From positions 62,001-126,000 of the forward strand of contig NZ_FQWM01000006.1 of NCBI RefSeq assembly GCF_900129685.1: 64,000 nt of DNA, read 5' to 3'. Below the pieces are notes generated by a model. The model was given only the letters and a program-made list of their open reading frames with translations, was not told the origin of the DNA and searched no databases. Both the position numbers and the translations under genes were made by a program. The DNA comes from Cognatishimia maritima (GTDB lineage: Bacteria; Pseudomonadota; Alphaproteobacteria; Rhodobacterales; Rhodobacteraceae). Below are positions 42,481 to 50,266 of the stretch, piece after piece (position 1 is the stretch's first letter; every line of letters begins with the position of its first letter).

Positions 42481-42525
42481 AGTGGTCTCCCTAATCTAAG
42501 CGCTCCTCTGCGCTGATGGTGCTAT

Positions 42526-42589
42526 TGGCGTATTCGCCAGAATTTGTGACAAGGGGGAAACCTAACGCCCAAAAAATAGTCACAATTTC
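42526..42589. promoter_or_regulatory. Inverted repeats in the dctP-dctB divergent region
   Basis: Two palindromic elements lie between the dctP start (42480) and dctB start (42711). TGGCG-TATT-CGCCA occupies 42526-42539. GAATTTGTGAC at 42540-42550 matches GTCACAATTTC at 42579-42589 as an inverted repeat (10 of 11) with a 28-base spacer. They may be operators for the downstream response regulator. No sigma-54 -24/-12 sequence was found by eye. Confidence 0.45.
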
Positions 42590-42710
42590 AAAACCTTACG
42601 CCATCACCTCGATTTCAGAAACGCGTTTGCCCGAATTTTCGGACAAAAAATCTTGTGCCACAAGGAGCAATCAGCGACCAATACCTAGCCCCATCACCGG
42701 AGTCGCCACC

Positions 42711-44357
42711 GTGATTCGAACCTTTATCCGACCTGCCCTGATCTGTGCAGCCCTCGGATTCGTGGCGGCCTATTGGGTTTATCATGCGACGCTTCGCGAC
42801 GAATTCAAAGCCCTGAAGATCAGTGGCGAGGCACGTTTGAATGAGGCGTCTTCGCGATTGCGACTGCAAATCGATGCCTTGCGCGCGCAGACAAATTTCA
42901 TTGCTGGTGCACCGCATTTGGTCACCACAGTTATGGAAGGTGACTTAGAAAGTGTATCCGATGATCTGACCGACTACGCGCTGACCTATGGCGCGACGCG
43001 CATCGACCTTTATGCACCGGATGGCACGCCCTTGGCGACTTCTGCATTTGCGCCGGCACCTGCCTCTGACAAATTGATCCAAGCGGCTTTGAATGGGCGA
43101 TTGGGCTATTCGCAGACAATCGAAGGCGAAAATCGGTTTTTCCAATTCAGCCGCGGCGTGACGACTTCTGCTGCTGATCCGATCGCTGCGCTGGTGGTCA
43201 CGGCTGATGTTGCAGCGCTGGAATTTGAATGGCCTGTGACGCCCGAAGTGATTGTGTTTCTGGATGACAGGCAAACCGCCTTTTCGACCAACCGCGCCAG
43301 CATTGCACTGTTCCCGCTTTTGGACTCCTCGGACACATTTGATTTCCACCTGCGTCCCACCAGCCGGACTGCGGGGGATCAGGTCTATCAATACGCGCTG
43401 CCAGGCACACCCGAGAAAGAAGCGCTGATCTTGTCGGCCTATGTGCCGCACTTTGATCTGACGGCGCAAATATTTCTTGAAACGCAGCAGGCAAGGAATA
43501 CGGCCATTGTTCGCGCGCTCTTGGCGGCGACGCTGGTTTTGATCATAGGTCTTGTCGCGGCGGTGGCAGCGCAGCAAAGACGGCGCCTAGAACTTGAGGC
43601 ACAGTATTCCGCGACGCTGGAAGCCCGCGTTGAGGAACGCACCGAGGAGTTGCGCAATGCGCAGGATGAGTTGGTCGAGGCGTCAAAGCTGGCGGCGCTG
43701 GGGCGGCTGTCTGCCGGGGTGAGCCACGAAATCAACCAGCCGCTCGCGGCAATAATGAATTTCGCCGAGAACTCTAAAAAGTTTCTGGAACGCGACAGAC
43801 CGGACCGGGCCAGCGAAAACCTTACGATGATCTCCAGCCAGGTTGAACGCATCAAACGGATCATCGGCAACCTGCGCGCCTTTGCACGGCAAGAGGTGGC
43901 CCCGACCGACCGGATTGATTTTTGCGATGTCGTGCGCGCCTCTCTCAGCGCCATGGACGATAGTTTGCGTGAAGCCGGCATTGATGTTTCGGTCGCGCTG
44001 CCATCCGCCCCAATAGAGGTCATCGCTGGCCGCGTGCGGCTTGAACAGGTGGTGCTAAACCTCATCTCCAACGCCGCAGATGCGATGGCCCAGAGTGATG
44101 TCAAAACGCTATCGGTACACCTTCGCACTGAAGGCGCAAACGCCGTTTTGACGGTTTCCGACAGCGGCAGCGGCATTGCCGATCCATCCCGTGTGTTTGA
44201 ACCGTTTTACACCACCAAAGAACTCGGCTCTTCCAAAGGGCTTGGCATGGGGCTGGCCCTGTCACACGGTTTGGTCACGCGGTTTGGCGGCACGCTGTCT
44301 TGTAAAAACCTCGACAAAGGCGCTGCGTTCACCATCAGCCTGCCAATCGCGGAGTGA
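42711..44357 (+). CDS. dctB: DctB-like sensor histidine kinase
   Basis: The 548-residue kinase starts at GTG 42711 with GGAG eight bases upstream; the longer in-frame ATG at 42516 would prepend about 65 residues over the promoter. It has a first helix (FIRPALICAALGFVAAYWVY), a periplasmic sensory region (about 40-250), a second helix (ALLAATLVLIIGLVAAVAAQ), a coiled coil, HisKA with SAGVSHEINQPLAAI and HATPase with NLISNAADAM, DSGSGI and GLGMGLALSHGL. It should sense the TRAP cargo and signal to the adjacent regulator. Divergent from the TRAP operon. Confidence 0.9.
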   Translation: MIRTFIRPALICAALGFVAAYWVYHATLRDEFKALKISGEARLNEASSRLRLQIDALRAQTNFIAGAPHLVTTVMEGDLESVSDDLTDYALTYGATRIDLYAPDGTPLATSAFAPAPASDKLIQAALNGRLGYSQTIEGENRFFQFSRGVTTSAADPIAALVVTADVAALEFEWPVTPEVIVFLDDRQTAFSTNRASIALFPLLDSSDTFDFHLRPTSRTAGDQVYQYALPGTPEKEALILSAYVPHFDLTAQIFLETQQARNTAIVRALLAATLVLIIGLVAAVAAQQRRRLELEAQYSATLEARVEERTEELRNAQDELVEASKLAALGRLSAGVSHEINQPLAAIMNFAENSKKFLERDRPDRASENLTMISSQVERIKRIIGNLRAFARQEVAPTDRIDFCDVVRASLSAMDDSLREAGIDVSVALPSAPIEVIAGRVRLEQVVLNLISNAADAMAQSDVKTLSVHLRTEGANAVLTVSDSGSGIADPSRVFEPFYTTKELGSSKGLGMGLALSHGLVTRFGGTLSCKNLDKGAAFTISLPIAE

Positions 44358-44360
44358 CAC

Positions 44361-44969
44361 ATGCTGACCAAAGTTCTGATCATCGAAGACGACACCGTTC
44401 TGCGCAATTCCATCGCTCAAACGTTGGAACTGGAAGACCTTGATCCGATACCAACAAATGGGTTCACACAGGCGCGACGATCGATCCGGTCCAATTTTCG
44501 CGGGGTGATCCTGTCTGACATCCGCATGCCTGATCACGATGGGTTTGACGTACTGCGGTTTGCCCAGACCAAGGACCCTGATCTGCCCGTCATTCTTTTG
44601 ACCGGGCATTCCGACGTGCCAACCGCAAAACGCGCCCTGAAAGAAGGGGCCTATGATTATCTGGAAAAACCTTGCCCGCCCGACACGATGCTGGAAACGC
44701 TGCACCGTGCCCTATCACATCGTGCCTTGATCCTTGAAAACCGTGAAGTACGGGATGAGCTGGAACAGATCAGCATGGACCAGACGGTGGGCACCTTGTC
44801 AGAACGACTGGAAACCCATGAACGCCGCATTATCGAAAGCGCTTTGTATGAGGCCGACGGGAAGGTGGCGCAGGCTGCCGAGGCTTTGGGCATCCCGCGC
44901 AACACGCTTTATGACCGTATGGGCAAGCTGCAGATCATCGCCAAGGCTTTCCGTAAAAGCAGCATGTGA
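44361..44969 (+). CDS. Response regulator with receiver and Fis-type HTH, AAA+ domain absent
   Basis: The 202-residue regulator has a receiver domain (D53, K103) followed by about 20 residues and a Fis-type helix-turn-helix (VAQAAEALGIPRNTLYDRMGKL, 169-190). Its HTH and the LSERLETHERRIIESAL lead-in look like DctD, yet the central AAA+ sigma-54 domain (about 240 residues) is missing. It would therefore work without sigma-54, like PrrA/ActR. It starts three bases after the DctB-like kinase stop and is its probable partner. Confidence 0.88.
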   Translation: MLTKVLIIEDDTVLRNSIAQTLELEDLDPIPTNGFTQARRSIRSNFRGVILSDIRMPDHDGFDVLRFAQTKDPDLPVILLTGHSDVPTAKRALKEGAYDYLEKPCPPDTMLETLHRALSHRALILENREVRDELEQISMDQTVGTLSERLETHERRIIESALYEADGKVAQAAEALGIPRNTLYDRMGKLQIIAKAFRKSSM

Positions 44970-45093: not shown

Positions 45094-47052
45094 ATGAACA
45101 CCATGTCCCAGATTTCCCTGACTTTCCCCGATGGCAACGCGCGTTCCTACGACGCAGGCGTCACCCCTGCCGAGGTCGCAGCCTCCATCGCATCTTCCCT
45201 TGCAAAAAAGGCCATTTCAGCAACGGTTGATGGCCAGCATTGGGACCTCGCATGGCCGATTGAGGCCGACGCGCAGATTGCAATCAACACGTTGAAAGAC
45301 AACGACGCCGAGGCGCTCGAACTGATCCGCCACGACTGCGCCCATATCATGGCCCGCGCCGTGCAAGAGATTTGGCCCGACGTCAAAGTCACTATCGGCC
45401 CCGTCATCGAACACGGCTGGTATTATGATTTCGACCGTGAAGAGCCTTTCACGCCCGAAGATCTCGGTCTCATCGAAAAGAAGATGAAAGAGATCATCAA
45501 CAAGCGCGATCCCGTCCGCACAGAGGTCTGGGAGCGCGATGTTGCGGTCAAATACTACGAAGATCGTGGCGAGCCCTATAAAGTCGAACTGATCGAAAGC
45601 ATTCCCGGCGATGAACCGCTGCGCATGTATTGGCATGGCGACTGGCAAGACCTTTGCCGTGGCCCGCACTTGCAGCACACAGGTCAAGTGCCAGCAGATG
45701 CCTTCAAGTTGATGTCTGTTGCTGGGGCCTATTGGCGCGGCGACAGCAACCGCGCGATGCTACAGCGTATCTACGGTGTGGCCTTCAAAAACAAAGAAGA
45801 CCTGAAAAAGCACCTCACCTTCCTAGAGGAAGCCGAAAAGCGCGATCACCGTCGTTTGGGCCGCGAGATGGACCTCTATCATATGCAGGAAGAGGCACCC
45901 GGACAGGTCTTTTGGCACCCCAACGGCTGGACGGTTTATACCGAATTGCAAGATTACATGCGCCGTCAGCAACGTCGCGGCGGTTATGTCGAGGTCAACA
46001 CACCTCAGGTGGTAGATCGCAAGCTGTGGGAGAAATCCGGCCACTGGGATAAGTACCAGGAAAACATGTTCATCGTTGAAGTGGACGAGGAGCACGCGCG
46101 CGAAAAAGCCGTGAATGCCCTGAAGCCGATGAACTGCCCGTGCCACGTGCAGATCTTCAACCAAGGTCTGAAATCCTACCGCGACCTGCCATTGCGCATG
46201 GCCGAATTCGGGTCATGTGCGCGTTATGAACCATCAGGCGCGCTGCACGGTATCATGCGCGTGCGCGGGTTTACGCAGGACGATGGCCACATCTTCTGTA
46301 CCGATGACCAGATCACGTCAGAAACCAAAGTCTTCATCGACTTCCTGTCTAAAATCTATGCCGACCTTGGTTTTAACGATTGGACCATCAAACTGTCGAC
46401 CCGCCCGGAACAGCGGATCGGGTCCGATGAAACTTGGGATGAAATGGAAAAGGCACTTGGCGATGCCTGTAAGGCAGCGGGGCACGACTTCGAAATCCTC
46501 GAAGGCGAAGGCGCGTTTTATGGTCCGAAGCTGGAGTTCACCCTGACCGACGCCATTGGCCGGAATTGGCAATGCGGCACGCTGCAGGTGGACGCAAACC
46601 TACCGGAACGTCTTGAGGCCAATTACATCGGTGCCGATGGCGAAAAGCACCGTCCGGTCATGCTGCATCGCGCGACCTTGGGGTCGTTTGAACGGTTTAT
46701 TGGCATTCTGATCGAAGAGCACGCAGGCAAACTGCCCTACTGGCTCGCCCCGCGTCAGGTGGTTGTGGCGGCGATTGTGTCTGATGCCAACGATTACTGC
46801 CTTGAAGTGGTCCAAGCGCTGAAAGCGGCTGGCGTGCGCGCCGAGGCCGACTTGCGCAACGAAAAGATCAACTACAAGGTCCGCGAGCATTCTGTGGGCA
46901 AGGTGCCGGTCATCCTCGCCTGCGGAAAGAAGGAAGTCGAGGACCGTTCGGTCACCGTGCGCCGCCTTGGGGAAAAGCAAACCCAAGTCCAGACGCTCGA
47001 CGAAATTGTTACAAGCCTTGGTGTCGAAGCAACACCACCAGATCGCCGCTGA
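45094..47052 (+). CDS. thrS: Threonyl-tRNA synthetase
   Basis: The 652-residue enzyme has the TGS domain (residues about 4-65), the editing domain with [18 protein letters not shown] and the metal-binding core [10 protein letters not shown] and [26 protein letters not shown], followed by the class II anticodon-binding end. It charges tRNA-Thr. The start is ATG 45094 (MNTMSQ) or, more usual in the family, [11 protein letters not shown] at 45103; the only GAGGAG is 17 bases upstream of the first. Ended by a strong hairpin. Confidence 0.97.
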
Positions 47053-47084
47053 GCCATTGTAACAATTCTCACGTCCAAAACTTG

Positions 47085-47112
47085 AAATGCCGGGGCCCAC
47101 GCCCCGGCATTT
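47085..47112 (+). terminator. Terminator after thrS
   Basis: AAATGCCGGGGC and GCCCCGGCATTT form a twelve-base-pair perfect stem with a four-base loop, followed by TCCGTTATTTT. The T run is imperfect but the stem is very strong. Confidence 0.85.
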
Positions 47113-47271
47113 CCGTTATTTTGGGCCATATCGCCCGCGATCCGTTCACGCCAGATAACAGCGCTGTGACCCACGAATGCGTTATTGGAGAATGAGTGCT
47201 GACCCCGGTTAGGGTGACCTCATGCCGCGAAACGTGGCTGGAATTCGTAACCGTATTTAGGAACCTTACAC

Positions 47272-47577
47272 ATGTCCAAAACTGTAAAAACTCTGGCAGC
47301 CGCCGCTTCTGTTGCAGCCGCAATGACAGCAATGACCTCCACCACTGCGCACGCAATGGACAAAGAAAAATGCTTTGGCGTTTCTCTGGCAGGTAAGAAC
47401 GACTGCGCCGCTGGCCCAGGCACCACATGCGCCGGTACATCCAAAGTTGACTACCAAGGCAACGCTTGGACTCTGGTCGACGCAGGTACCTGCGCCGAAA
47501 TCGAACTGCCTGCAATGGCAGACGGCACCGCGCGTATGGGGTCCCTGGAAGCACTGGATCGCGACCTGCCAGCATAA
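47272..47577 (+). CDS. bufA1: Bufferin-type RiPP precursor (DUF2282/BufA1)
   Basis: The 101-residue precursor has a Sec-type signal ([20 protein letters not shown], cut after AHA, residue 28). The mature part of about 73 residues holds four cysteines (C34, C45, C53, C74) spaced [12 protein letters not shown] and then GTTC and GTC, the DUF2282 pattern. In Caulobacter such proteins are bufferins: the MNIO enzyme turns central cysteines into thiooxazoles that bind copper in the periplasm. Here the next three genes are the matching maturation set. Family and context are clear; modification is inferred. Confidence 0.88.
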
Positions 47578-47650
47578 GGCACCTGCGACACCTGTTTGGC
47601 CCTGCTTCCCTCGCAGGGCCATTCATCGTTCATAGACCAAGGCCCGCCCG

Positions 47651-48514
47651 ATGTTTGACACCCATGATCAGCCCCGCGCCCTGCCCCTGAAACCCGGGGT
47701 TGGCTACAAGCCGCAGCATTTTTCGGACTTGCTGGAAAATCCGGGGCATGTCGGCTGGCTTGAGATCCACGCAGAGAACTACATGGGCATGGGTGGTCGC
47801 CCGCTGGCGCAATTGCGTCACCTCGCAGAACAATTCCCGATTTCCGTGCATGGCGTTGGCCTGTCGATTGGCGGAGAATCCCCGCTTGATCCAGAGCACC
47901 TTGCGCGACTGAAACATCTTGTGGACTGGCTTAATCCCACGGTTTTCTCTGAACATCTTGCATGGTCCACGCATGAAGGCAGCTATTTTAACGATTTGCT
48001 GCCGCTCCCCTATACATCCGAAACGTTGACGCGGGTCGCTAACCATATTGATCAATTGCAAAACACCATCGGTCGCCAGATGCTGCTGGAGAATCCGTCC
48101 AGCTACCTGAAGTTCGCTGAAAGCACATGGTCCGAACCTGATTTCCTGCGTGAACTGGCGCAGCGCACAGGCTGCGGGTTGCTGCTGGATGTGAACAACG
48201 TTTTTGTTTCAGCGACCAACCTTGAATACGATCCGCGCGCCTATATCGATGATTATCCGCTGGAACAGGTGGGCGAGATTCACCTTGGCGGGCATGATGA
48301 AGACGAAGATGACCACGGTAAACCTCTGTTGATTGACAGCCACGGCGCAGAGATCGTCGATCCGGTCTGGGCGCTCTTGGATCATACCTTGGAACAATCT
48401 GGCCCGCGCCCGATCCTGATTGAATGGGATACAGATGTGCCGGAATGGCCGGTGCTGTCCGCCGAGGCCGACCGCGCGGCGGCTGCGCTTGCAAACCTAA
48501 AGGTGGGCGCATGA
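47651..48514 (+). CDS. bufB1: MNIO (DUF692) oxygenase, bufferin-modifying
   Basis: The 287-residue TIM-barrel protein is of DUF692, the multinuclear non-heme iron oxidative enzymes. Ligand strands seen are WLEIHAENYM, ISVHGVGLSIGG, FSEHLAW, LLENPSSY, LLLDVNNVFVSA, VGEIHLGGHDE and LLIDSHGAEIV, giving the conserved His/Asp/Glu set. MbnB of methanobactin synthesis is a relative. It oxidises precursor cysteines. It begins 73 bases after bufA1 and overlaps bufC1 by four bases (ATGA). Confidence 0.92.
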   Translation: MFDTHDQPRALPLKPGVGYKPQHFSDLLENPGHVGWLEIHAENYMGMGGRPLAQLRHLAEQFPISVHGVGLSIGGESPLDPEHLARLKHLVDWLNPTVFSEHLAWSTHEGSYFNDLLPLPYTSETLTRVANHIDQLQNTIGRQMLLENPSSYLKFAESTWSEPDFLRELAQRTGCGLLLDVNNVFVSATNLEYDPRAYIDDYPLEQVGEIHLGGHDEDEDDHGKPLLIDSHGAEIVDPVWALLDHTLEQSGPRPILIEWDTDVPEWPVLSAEADRAAAALANLKVGA

Positions 48515-49284
48515 CTGTCACCCAGACAGAGTTTCGTGCAGCCATGTTAAACGTGGATATTGCCGTCCCCGCCGGGCTGGTCGATACGCACGACCGCCCA
48601 GCTGGCAGTCGCTTTGATGTCTATCGCAACAATGTCGCTGTCTCTCTGACCGAGGCGCTTGAAACCGGGTTTCCGGTGATCGCCAAATTACTTGGTGAGG
48701 CAAATTTCAAAGCCATTGCAGGGGTGTTCCTGCGACAGTCCCCGCCAGAAGCCCCTGTTATGATGCATTATGGTGCAGCGTTCCCGCAATTCCTGCGAGA
48801 ATTTCAGCCGTTGCAGCACCTTGGCTATTTGGGCGATGTCGCCGAAATCGAGCTTGCCCTGCGGCGCAGCTATCACGCGGCGGACAGTCAGGGCGTGCCC
48901 GGCGACGCTTTGGCGCAAATTGCGCCAGAGGCCTTGGCTGGCGCGCGGCTTTCATTGGCACCGTCTTTAGAAGTCGTTCGGTCCCATTGGCCGATCTATG
49001 ACATCTGGGCCTTCAACACCTACCAAGGCCGCCCCAAACCTGAAGCCCGAGCACAGAATGTCGTGGTTCTGCGCCCAGAGTTTGACCCGGAACCGCATCC
49101 TCTTCCCACCGGTGGCGCGTCGTTCATCAAAGAGATTCATCGCGGACGCACGCTGGGCGAAGCCGCTGACATCACATCCAATTTGGCCGAGGACTTAGAC
49201 CTTGGCGCTGTGCTTGGCTTATTGCTCAGCAAGGGTGCAATCACCAATATCACCGCCGCCGAACAAAATGAGGAAGATCAATGA
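48511..49284 (+). CDS. bufC1: DUF2063 partner protein of the MNIO enzyme
   Basis: The 257-residue protein has the DUF2063 N-terminal region (QTEFRAAMLNVDIAVPAGL, RFDVYRNNVAVSLTEALETGFPVIAKLLGEANFKAIAGVFLRQ) and a C-terminal winged-type region (WAFNTYQ onward). In MNIO pathways such partners bind the precursor and deliver it to the oxygenase. The ATG at 48511 follows AAGGTG and overlaps the bufB1 stop, so earlier in-frame starts within bufB1 are unlikely. It overlaps bufD1 by four bases. Confidence 0.9.
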   Translation: MTVTQTEFRAAMLNVDIAVPAGLVDTHDRPAGSRFDVYRNNVAVSLTEALETGFPVIAKLLGEANFKAIAGVFLRQSPPEAPVMMHYGAAFPQFLREFQPLQHLGYLGDVAEIELALRRSYHAADSQGVPGDALAQIAPEALAGARLSLAPSLEVVRSHWPIYDIWAFNTYQGRPKPEARAQNVVVLRPEFDPEPHPLPTGGASFIKEIHRGRTLGEAADITSNLAEDLDLGAVLGLLLSKGAITNITAAEQNEEDQ

Positions 49285-49841
49285 ACACGCTGATAAACAT
49301 GCATAATACTGTGTTCTCACGCCTGCAAAGCCAAGACTGGATTCTGACGTCTTTGGCGCGGCTGCTCTTTGCTGCGATCCTGTTCGTTTATTACTGGAAC
49401 TCTGGGCTGACAAAACTGGGCGACGGGCTTTTTGGTATTTTCTCACCCTCAACCGGGGCCTATGCGCAAATCTGGCCCCGTGTGCTTGAAGCGGTCAGCT
49501 ATAACACCAGCGAACTAAGCCTATTTCACTGGCTCGTGGTCTTTGCTGGCACCGTCGCCGAATTTGTGCTGCCAGTGTTGATCGTCGTCGGATTGCTGAC
49601 CCGTCTCGCATCACTTGGCATGATCGGTTTTGTCGTTATGCAGTCGCTGACCGACATTTACGGCCATGGCGCCGATGCCGACACGATTGGCGCTTGGTTT
49701 GACCGTGTTTCTGACGCGCACATCATGGATCAACGCGCCTTTTGGGTCTTCTTATTGCTGGTGCTGGTGATCAAAGGCGCGGGGCCACTGTCCATCGACC
49801 GCCTTCTGGCCCGCCGCCAAACGGCCCCTGTGCCCGCATAA
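49281..49841 (+). CDS. bufD1: DoxX family membrane protein of the bufferin cluster
   Basis: The 186-residue protein has four helices and the DoxX pattern (LLFAAILFVYYWNSGLTKLG, FAGTVAEFVLPVLIVVGLLTR, FVVMQSLTDIYGHGAD). DoxX proteins are common companions of DUF2282/DUF692/DUF2063 genes and might handle electrons or copper in the membrane; the role is unknown. Coupled by an ATGA overlap to bufC1. Last gene in the operon. Confidence 0.88.
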   Translation: MNTLINMHNTVFSRLQSQDWILTSLARLLFAAILFVYYWNSGLTKLGDGLFGIFSPSTGAYAQIWPRVLEAVSYNTSELSLFHWLVVFAGTVAEFVLPVLIVVGLLTRLASLGMIGFVVMQSLTDIYGHGADADTIGAWFDRVSDAHIMDQRAFWVFLLLVLVIKGAGPLSIDRLLARRQTAPVPA

Positions 49842-49856
49842 TTGATCGAAAGGCGC

Positions 49857-50225
49857 TTAGAAATGCGCCTTTTCTTCGTCGGGTTTTCCAGCTGAGACGG
49901 CCATGATCCCTGCAAGCCCGGCAAAGGCAATTGGGAACATCGTGAAGACGTTAAAGCCGAACCCGACATACATCCACCCTGCTGAAATCAGCAAAAGGAT
50001 CCCGGCCCAGAGCGCGCGAGAGCGCGCCATTGCGCCACCGGCAATCGCCAAAAGCGGGGCCATAAGGGATGTCGAGCGGACAAGTTCGATATTTTCTACC
50101 TGCTCTGCAACGCCCTCTAATTCGCCCCATGACTCGATGGCAGCCGTGTAACCCCACCCAAAAAACCCGACGATCATGCCGACAATACCGGCAATGATGC
50201 CTAGAACCAGTGCTGCGTTTCTCAT
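49857..50225 (-). CDS. Small four-helix membrane protein, unknown function
   Basis: The 122-residue protein has an N-terminal helix (LVLGIIAGIVGMIVGFFGWGY), a polar region (ESWGELEGVAEQVENIELVR) and three further helices; the C-terminus (KPDEEKAHF) is charged. I do not recognise a family. ATG 50225 with GGGAGA upstream is chosen over a frame extension that would overlap the ArsC-like gene. It follows that gene on the same strand, 41 bases away, so the two are probably co-transcribed. Confidence 0.7.
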   Translation of the reverse strand: MRNAALVLGIIAGIVGMIVGFFGWGYTAAIESWGELEGVAEQVENIELVRSTSLMAPLLAIAGGAMARSRALWAGILLLISAGWMYVGFGFNVFTMFPIAFAGLAGIMAVSAGKPDEEKAHF

Positions 50226-50266
50226 AAATCTCTCCCGCTGCTCTGCTTTAAGATAGGCAATGCGCC

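Follow-up and report, generated by a model that had tools for sequence, protein, structure and literature searches.

Bufferins are a recently described and widespread class of metal-binding peptides. In Caulobacter, the operon orthologous to the one studied here is reported to be driven by sigma-F from a GTAACC-N16-CGAA promoter and restrained by CC3252, later named NrsF (excerpts of PMC3511200). The genes CCNA_03363-03366 are copper-induced (log2 fold change 1.40 to 6.31), copper induced the operon in either medium and either cell type examined, and disruption of sigF makes Caulobacter copper-sensitive (excerpts of PMC8224329). Buf1 clusters are described as containing sigma-factor and NrsF genes and Buf1 as copper-binding; in the Buf1 model, modification is confined to the two central cysteines of the precursor, and a disulphide joins the first to the last (excerpts of PMC12452194). 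Our literature search found no description of how bufferins are switched on where sigma-F is missing.

We analyzed a 64,000-nucleotide stretch of DNA (the window) from Cognatishimia maritima that carries a bufferin operon. The operon is complete and fairly ordinary; what is new is a conserved control element upstream of it. Judged from comparative sequence data, this element has apparently taken the place of the usual stress sigma factor within the bacterial family.

The buf operon and its precursor peptide

The operon consists of a DUF2282 precursor gene (bufA), an MNIO gene (bufB), a DUF2063 gene (bufC) and doxX, in this order (Table 1). A sequence-only reading had proposed this gene set and order, with ATGA overlaps among the last three genes. 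The coordinates agree, the overlaps are present at the bufB/bufC and bufC/doxX junctions, and each product exceeds its Pfam gathering score (DUF2282 on BufA, 85.6 bits with a cut-off of 22.4; MbnB_TglH_ChrH on BufB, 354 with 25; DUF2063 on BufC, 82.3 with 27.2; DoxX on the doxX product, 27.8 with 23.6). BufB also reached 379.1 bits with NCBIfam NF050167 ('MNIO family bufferin maturase'), above the equivalog cut-off of 310; its scores with the four other matching MNIO families (HvfB, ApyH, MbnB and ChrH) were all below cut-off. These scores bear out the bufferin-type identity claimed earlier and support the view that the cluster is of the Buf1 type.

Table 1. Features of the buf region, in window coordinates
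Feature	Position	Strand	Size or form	Evidence
Intrinsic terminator-like hairpin after thrS, separating thrS from the buf operon	47084..47113	+	13-pair stem, T-rich tail	Consensus match only
Tandem-dyad element TAACAGCGCTGTGACCCACGAATGCGTTATTGG, proposed regulator site	47156..47188	+	33 bp	Upstream comparison, genome searches, census
Weak -35-like TTGGAG, abutting the element	47185..47190	+		Inferred from spacing
-10-like TAGGGT, 25 bases past the element core	47210..47215	+		TANNNT comparison
bufA, bufferin (Buf1, DUF2282) precursor	47272..47577	+	101 aa	
GC-rich hairpin between bufA and bufB	47597..47621	+	9 pairs, no T run	Stem search, folding
bufB, MNIO bufferin maturase	47651..48514	+	287 aa	Pfam, NCBIfam, PDB search, conservation
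bufC, DUF2063 partner protein	48511..49284	+	257 aa	Pfam, NCBIfam
doxX-family membrane protein gene	49281..49841	+	186 aa	Pfam

The closest solved structure to BufB in a PDB search was 3bww. Across 136 BufB sequences, 23 His/Asp/Glu/Asn positions were more than 97% conserved, and H67, H102, D115, E147, E162, D180, N182, N183, H211, D229, H231, E258 and D260 were invariant in all 136. BufC scored 38 bits with the HvfC model (RRE_HvfC), far under the cut-off of 142, and had no match at E<=0.1 in the PDB search. The genome contains one DUF2282 match and one MNIO match.

Pfam identified a histidine kinase, a response regulator and an ArsC-family protein among the upstream and downstream neighbours; ThrRS, a cold-shock protein, DHFR and thymidylate synthase were recognized by eye from ORF translations. 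As the sequence-only reading had stated, no copper exporter gene is among the genes flanking buf in the window. The gene order thrS-bufABC-doxX (45094-49841) is kept in most relatives; 73 of 81 sequences contain a thrS-like gene. On the minus strand, 49857-50234 encodes a 125-aa hydrophobic protein with no Pfam or NCBIfam match; its homologues lie downstream of buf in 38 of the 81 sequences.

DUF2282 was above cut-off in 114 of 149 genomes of the order, a sample whose listed genomes were all placed by the tool in the window's own family, and in 65 of 190 genomes of the class. Carrying a bufferin cluster is ordinary for these bacteria. Among named relatives, those of Cognatishimia and Shimia are nearest, with a top BufB identity of 86% (Cognatishimia activa).

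Read by eye, BufA begins with a signal sequence (codons 47272-47355) that has an Ala-rich core and ends in AHA, leaving a 73-residue remainder. The four cysteines noted earlier (C34, C45, C53 and C74) are present, the same number as in Buf1, and a four-Cys precursor lies ahead of bufB in 79 of the 81 sequences (window and 80 loci). The pattern used found no precursor in L064 or L082, the latter beginning only 280 bases before its bufB. Since the Buf1 model modifies the two central cysteines, two modified cysteines (C45 and C53), not four, are to be expected here. By family membership, the chemistry and metal role of the product in C. maritima, including copper binding, would be those of Buf1.

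Beyond the Pfam domain, after the fourth cysteine, BufA carries the tail RxGSLExLxRDLPA (47530-47574, at the bufA 3' end). An RxGSLExLxRDLP tail with a variable spacer is common to roseobacter precursors, and more distant precursors keep mainly GSL. The tail may be a recognition or folding element. Two precursor genes precede bufB in 10 of 79 loci (L007-L010, L012, L013, L016, L020, L051 and L067); in L007-L010, L012, L013 and L016, just 10-11 bases separate the second from bufB, too few for the hairpin.

The bufA-bufB gap of the window (73 bp) folds as a whole at -28.1 kcal/mol (z -2.85). Counting gaps of at least 23 bases, window included, we found a hairpin of at least 9 pairs in 65 of 72, as against 21 among 432 length-matched random windows. 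Stem sequences vary widely among relatives, and the pairing is kept. Because no consistent T run was seen by eye after these hairpins among the relatives, we take the hairpin for a stabilizer or attenuator that would raise precursor over enzyme. A 5' leader hairpin just past the -10 seemed conserved by eye and was rejected, as no more than 2 of the 71 distinct leaders did better than their shuffled versions (p<=0.05).

A tandem-dyad element upstream of bufA

Upstream of bufA lie two direct copies of the dyad TCACG-N4-CGTGA, degenerate in the window, with a 15-bp period (dyad 1, 47156-47169; dyad 2, 47171-47184). The general form across the window and relatives is TRACNNNNNNGTGANNCACNNNNNNGTGA, with NTGG or NTTC mostly next; in L063 and L065, the first copy is perfect (TCACGCACGCGTGA). 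All 79 upstreams for which a precursor was identified (window and 78 loci; L064 and L082 were left out) matched at 13 or more of 15 core positions; the core pattern had been derived from these first 79 upstreams, whose lowest score was 13/15. Across all 1.06 Mb of the 81 sequences, 82 positions on one strand scored at least 13/15. Eight of 33 columns were invariant among 36 distinct sites, and the profile (R1) was built from 36 of 52 distinct sites.

Searching the genome with the pattern and up to 3 mismatches gave three hits, namely the perfectly matching bufA site, the reverse strand of that site and one further position; the reversed control also gave three. The profile search, with 150 of 1433 candidates scored, placed the bufA site first (E 0.003), with nothing else below E 0.3. 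As pattern hits equalled the control and the profile added nothing, we rejected a wider regulon in this genome, where the full element occurs only at bufA. A search of 40 family genomes, half with and half without DUF2282, gave 13 hits at E<0.01, each just before a DUF2282 gene; at the looser threshold of E<=0.5, the bufA site was recovered in 17 of the 20 genomes with DUF2282. Weaker hits (E 0.0135 to 0.5) occurred elsewhere too, some in bufferin-less genomes; the best off-target hit (E 0.0135) precedes a response-regulator gene.

A similar dyad pair lies just before a DUF1638 gene in L150 and L152 (positions 1501-1531) and, at the same place, in L155 and L161. Its spacing is 16 bp in L150 and L152, and PF07796 was confirmed in L150. 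The pair occurs in a genus (g8) without DUF2282 in its sampled genomes; in L130, the bufferin genes have a DUF1638 gene ~2 kb away.

A search of 47000-47700 in the window yielded no consensus sigma-70 promoter, which suits an activator-dependent promoter but is also a simple lack of support. TANNNT occurred at offsets 23-26 after the element in 64 of the 97 genomes with a tandem element (61 matches at offsets 24 and 25) and was missing at the expected place in 33. A CueR/MerR-type site was rejected, as the element is not between the proposed -35 and -10. The element could also belong to the promoter of another ECF sigma factor, with its repeats as extended -35 motifs; one sigma factor would then have taken over from another with no dedicated transcription factor involved. 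Nine sigma-70 region 4 matches in the genome, eight of them above cut-off, agree with this proposal, as does the abutment of the element on the expected -35. However, a 29-base two-dyad site exceeds, by general knowledge, the size of an ECF -35, the -10 is mostly of the TANNNT type, and the dyad also stands beside the sigma-F -35 in 8 of 12 promoters (see below); an ECF promoter is thus very unlikely.

Promoter types and NrsF across the family

We took a census of the DNA before the precursor in all 114 bufferin-positive genomes (30 + 1 + 2 + 80 loci and the window). At a threshold of 12/15 (6 rows at just 12), 97 carried the tandem element, 12 a GTAAC-N17/18-CG[AT] promoter (sigma-F-type) and 5 neither, with 12 rows that matched both patterns assigned by position. 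Eleven of these were counted as tandem, their GTAAC match lying 54-185 bases upstream of the element; G088 was counted as sigma-F-type, as the element match overlaps the GTAAC box, NrsF adjoins and a perfect dyad precedes. Of the five with neither, G073 and G106 look degenerate, and G015, G019 and G114 show nothing.

In the 149-genome order search, NrsF was above cut-off in 12 of 12 sigma-F-type genomes versus 2 of 97 tandem-type genomes (Fisher p 2.9e-14, a value overstated because the genomes are related and the counts are not independent events). Judged from coordinates, NrsF lies within 3.5 kb of buf in 10 of the 12, and on another contig than buf in G113 (match in two pieces) and G046. 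In the two tandem-type genomes with NrsF (G062 and G067), it is not near buf; G023 and G050 gave below-cut-off matches. The C. maritima genome (assembly 99.4% complete) had no NrsF match at E<=0.001, with the C. vibrioides control positive, and the DNA upstream of bufA in the window contains no GTAAC-N17/18-CG[AT] promoter. Without NrsF in the genome, Caulobacter-type sigma-F/NrsF was rejected as the regulator here. The two-component system at 42516-44966 was also rejected, as it showed no conserved clustering with buf among the gene clusters listed. The sequence-only reading had placed the regulator elsewhere or left it unknown; the absence of NrsF agrees, and the operator-like element at 47156-47188 sharpens that statement.

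An ordinary bufferin cluster might account for these observations, the element being the promoter of a conserved operon served by a global regulator with many targets, with no switch of control. Bufferins are indeed common (114/149 genomes), and with the thrS-buf order kept (thrS-like gene in 73/81), nearby DNA may be alike by descent. Yet the invariant columns (8/33 in 36 distinct sites) stand in neighbouring DNA that varies by eye, the genome holds no second full element, and element and NrsF nearly exclude each other, making this account doubtful.

The dyad also accompanies sigma-F promoters. Of the 12 sigma-F-type promoters, 8 have a copy 4-6 bp ahead of GTAAC that matches at no fewer than 8 of its 10 positions, and in the other 4 the dyad is absent or poor; the same criterion was satisfied by 246 of 24000 random 24-mers of the same loci (1.0%). 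A strict composite pattern of dyad plus sigma-F promoter gave 6 sites in 385 genomes of the class and 0 in 385 rows of the reversed control. Four of the six precede bufA and are flanked on the opposite side by an NrsF gene; sigma-70 domains were confirmed in the gene beside NrsF in L202 and L203. The others precede a DsbD_TM gene and a DsbD_N gene, families that belong to thiol-disulphide exchange. These DsbD-type sites, in one genome each, fit a copper or thiol stress regulon. The two DsbD_TM loci of this genome have no dyad of at least 9/10 positions. We read the shared dyad as the site of one regulator that may have been kept while the sigma factor was exchanged.

In a BufB tree (quick method, many open forks), with rough promoter labels (1000-base upstream, CGA only), the sigma-F-type L097-L100 form a clade beside the 108-row clade holding the window. 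Inside the latter, GTAAC promoters occur in L107, which branches early, and in L108, which branches later. The tree is consistent with sigma-F control as the older state and is no proof of it.

Proposed control and comparison with described systems

We observed the genes, the element and its conservation, its near exclusion with NrsF and the hairpin; a Buf1 bufferin operon under a rewired promoter is probably the best explanation overall. For most of the family, we lean slightly towards a bufferin operon that has moved from sigma-F/NrsF to an undescribed regulator acting on two tandem TCACG-N4-CGTGA dyads at a sigma-70 promoter, with its single full site, in the genome examined, at this operon; single dyads beside sigma-F promoters would be an intermediate state.

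In our model, which supplies the regulator, its activator sign, the signal, the effect on the message, the chemistry, the metal and the direction of change, a DNA-binding protein would read a stress signal (an excess of copper or of a similar thiophilic metal being the likeliest), and its dimers would sit on the two dyads just upstream of a weak sigma-70 promoter and turn bufABC-doxX on. The activator role is guessed from the position of the element; a repressor fits too. The bufA-bufB hairpin would favour the short bufA message and so keep substrate in excess over enzyme. BufC would present the precursor, and multi-iron BufB would turn C45 and C53 into thiooxazoles. After export by Sec, the C34-C74 disulphide would close and the peptide would buffer metal in the periplasm. 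Relatives would use the same dyad beside a sigma-F promoter, and the window lineage would have lost sigma-F/NrsF control and gained the second dyad.

Alternatively, copper could be incidental, and the peptide could have its role with a different metal or under a different stress (gold, silver, cadmium, chromate or thiol stress). For the gig operons, responses to gold, silver and copper are reported, and for the sigma-F regulon, responses to chromate and cadmium (excerpts of PMC8224329 and PMC3511200); in two genomes, a DsbD-type gene is what follows the dyad and its sigma-F promoter. However, Buf1 is reported to bind copper and the Caulobacter sigF mutant to be copper-sensitive (excerpts of PMC12452194 and PMC8224329), and we consider an incidental role for copper unlikely. 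If the model of a rewired Buf1 promoter is true, its regulator would be a new sensor of envelope metal or thiol stress, and the element would be a direct bait for finding it in easily handled marine bacteria. The family shows sigma-F-type, single-dyad and tandem-dyad promoters side by side; control changes and the product stays the same.

Among described systems, methanobactin shares the MNIO superfamily with this cluster, but BufB scores 66.6 bits with MbnB (cut-off 325), and BufA has a putative Sec-type signal sequence rather than a leader peptide. The captophorins (oxazolin/Hvf and fontiphorin), for which thiooxazoles are reported (excerpts of PMC13097082), share MNIO, the DUF2063 partner and, as read by eye in BufA, a signal peptide; unlike oxazolin/Hvf precursors, BufA has no EGKCG repeats, and BufB reaches 242 bits with HvfB (cut-off 360). 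The sigma-F-regulated Buf1 operon of C. vibrioides (CC3254-CC3257) has the same DUF2282, MNIO, DUF2063 and DoxX content and order, and its precursor likewise has four cysteines and a signal sequence, the latter read by eye in BufA. In contrast to C. vibrioides, C. maritima has neither NrsF nor GTAAC-N17/18-CG[AT], and instead a tandem-dyad element with a sigma-70-like -10. The sigma-F-type operons of the same family (12/114; for example G088 and G014, loci L127 and L129) encode the same kind of precursor and MNIO protein, although the precursors of L097-L100 have a shorter tail of the GSLxPxxM type. They differ from the C. maritima operon in their GTAAC promoter and in having NrsF nearby (10/12); in most (8/12) the dyad is present too, as a single copy ahead of the -35.
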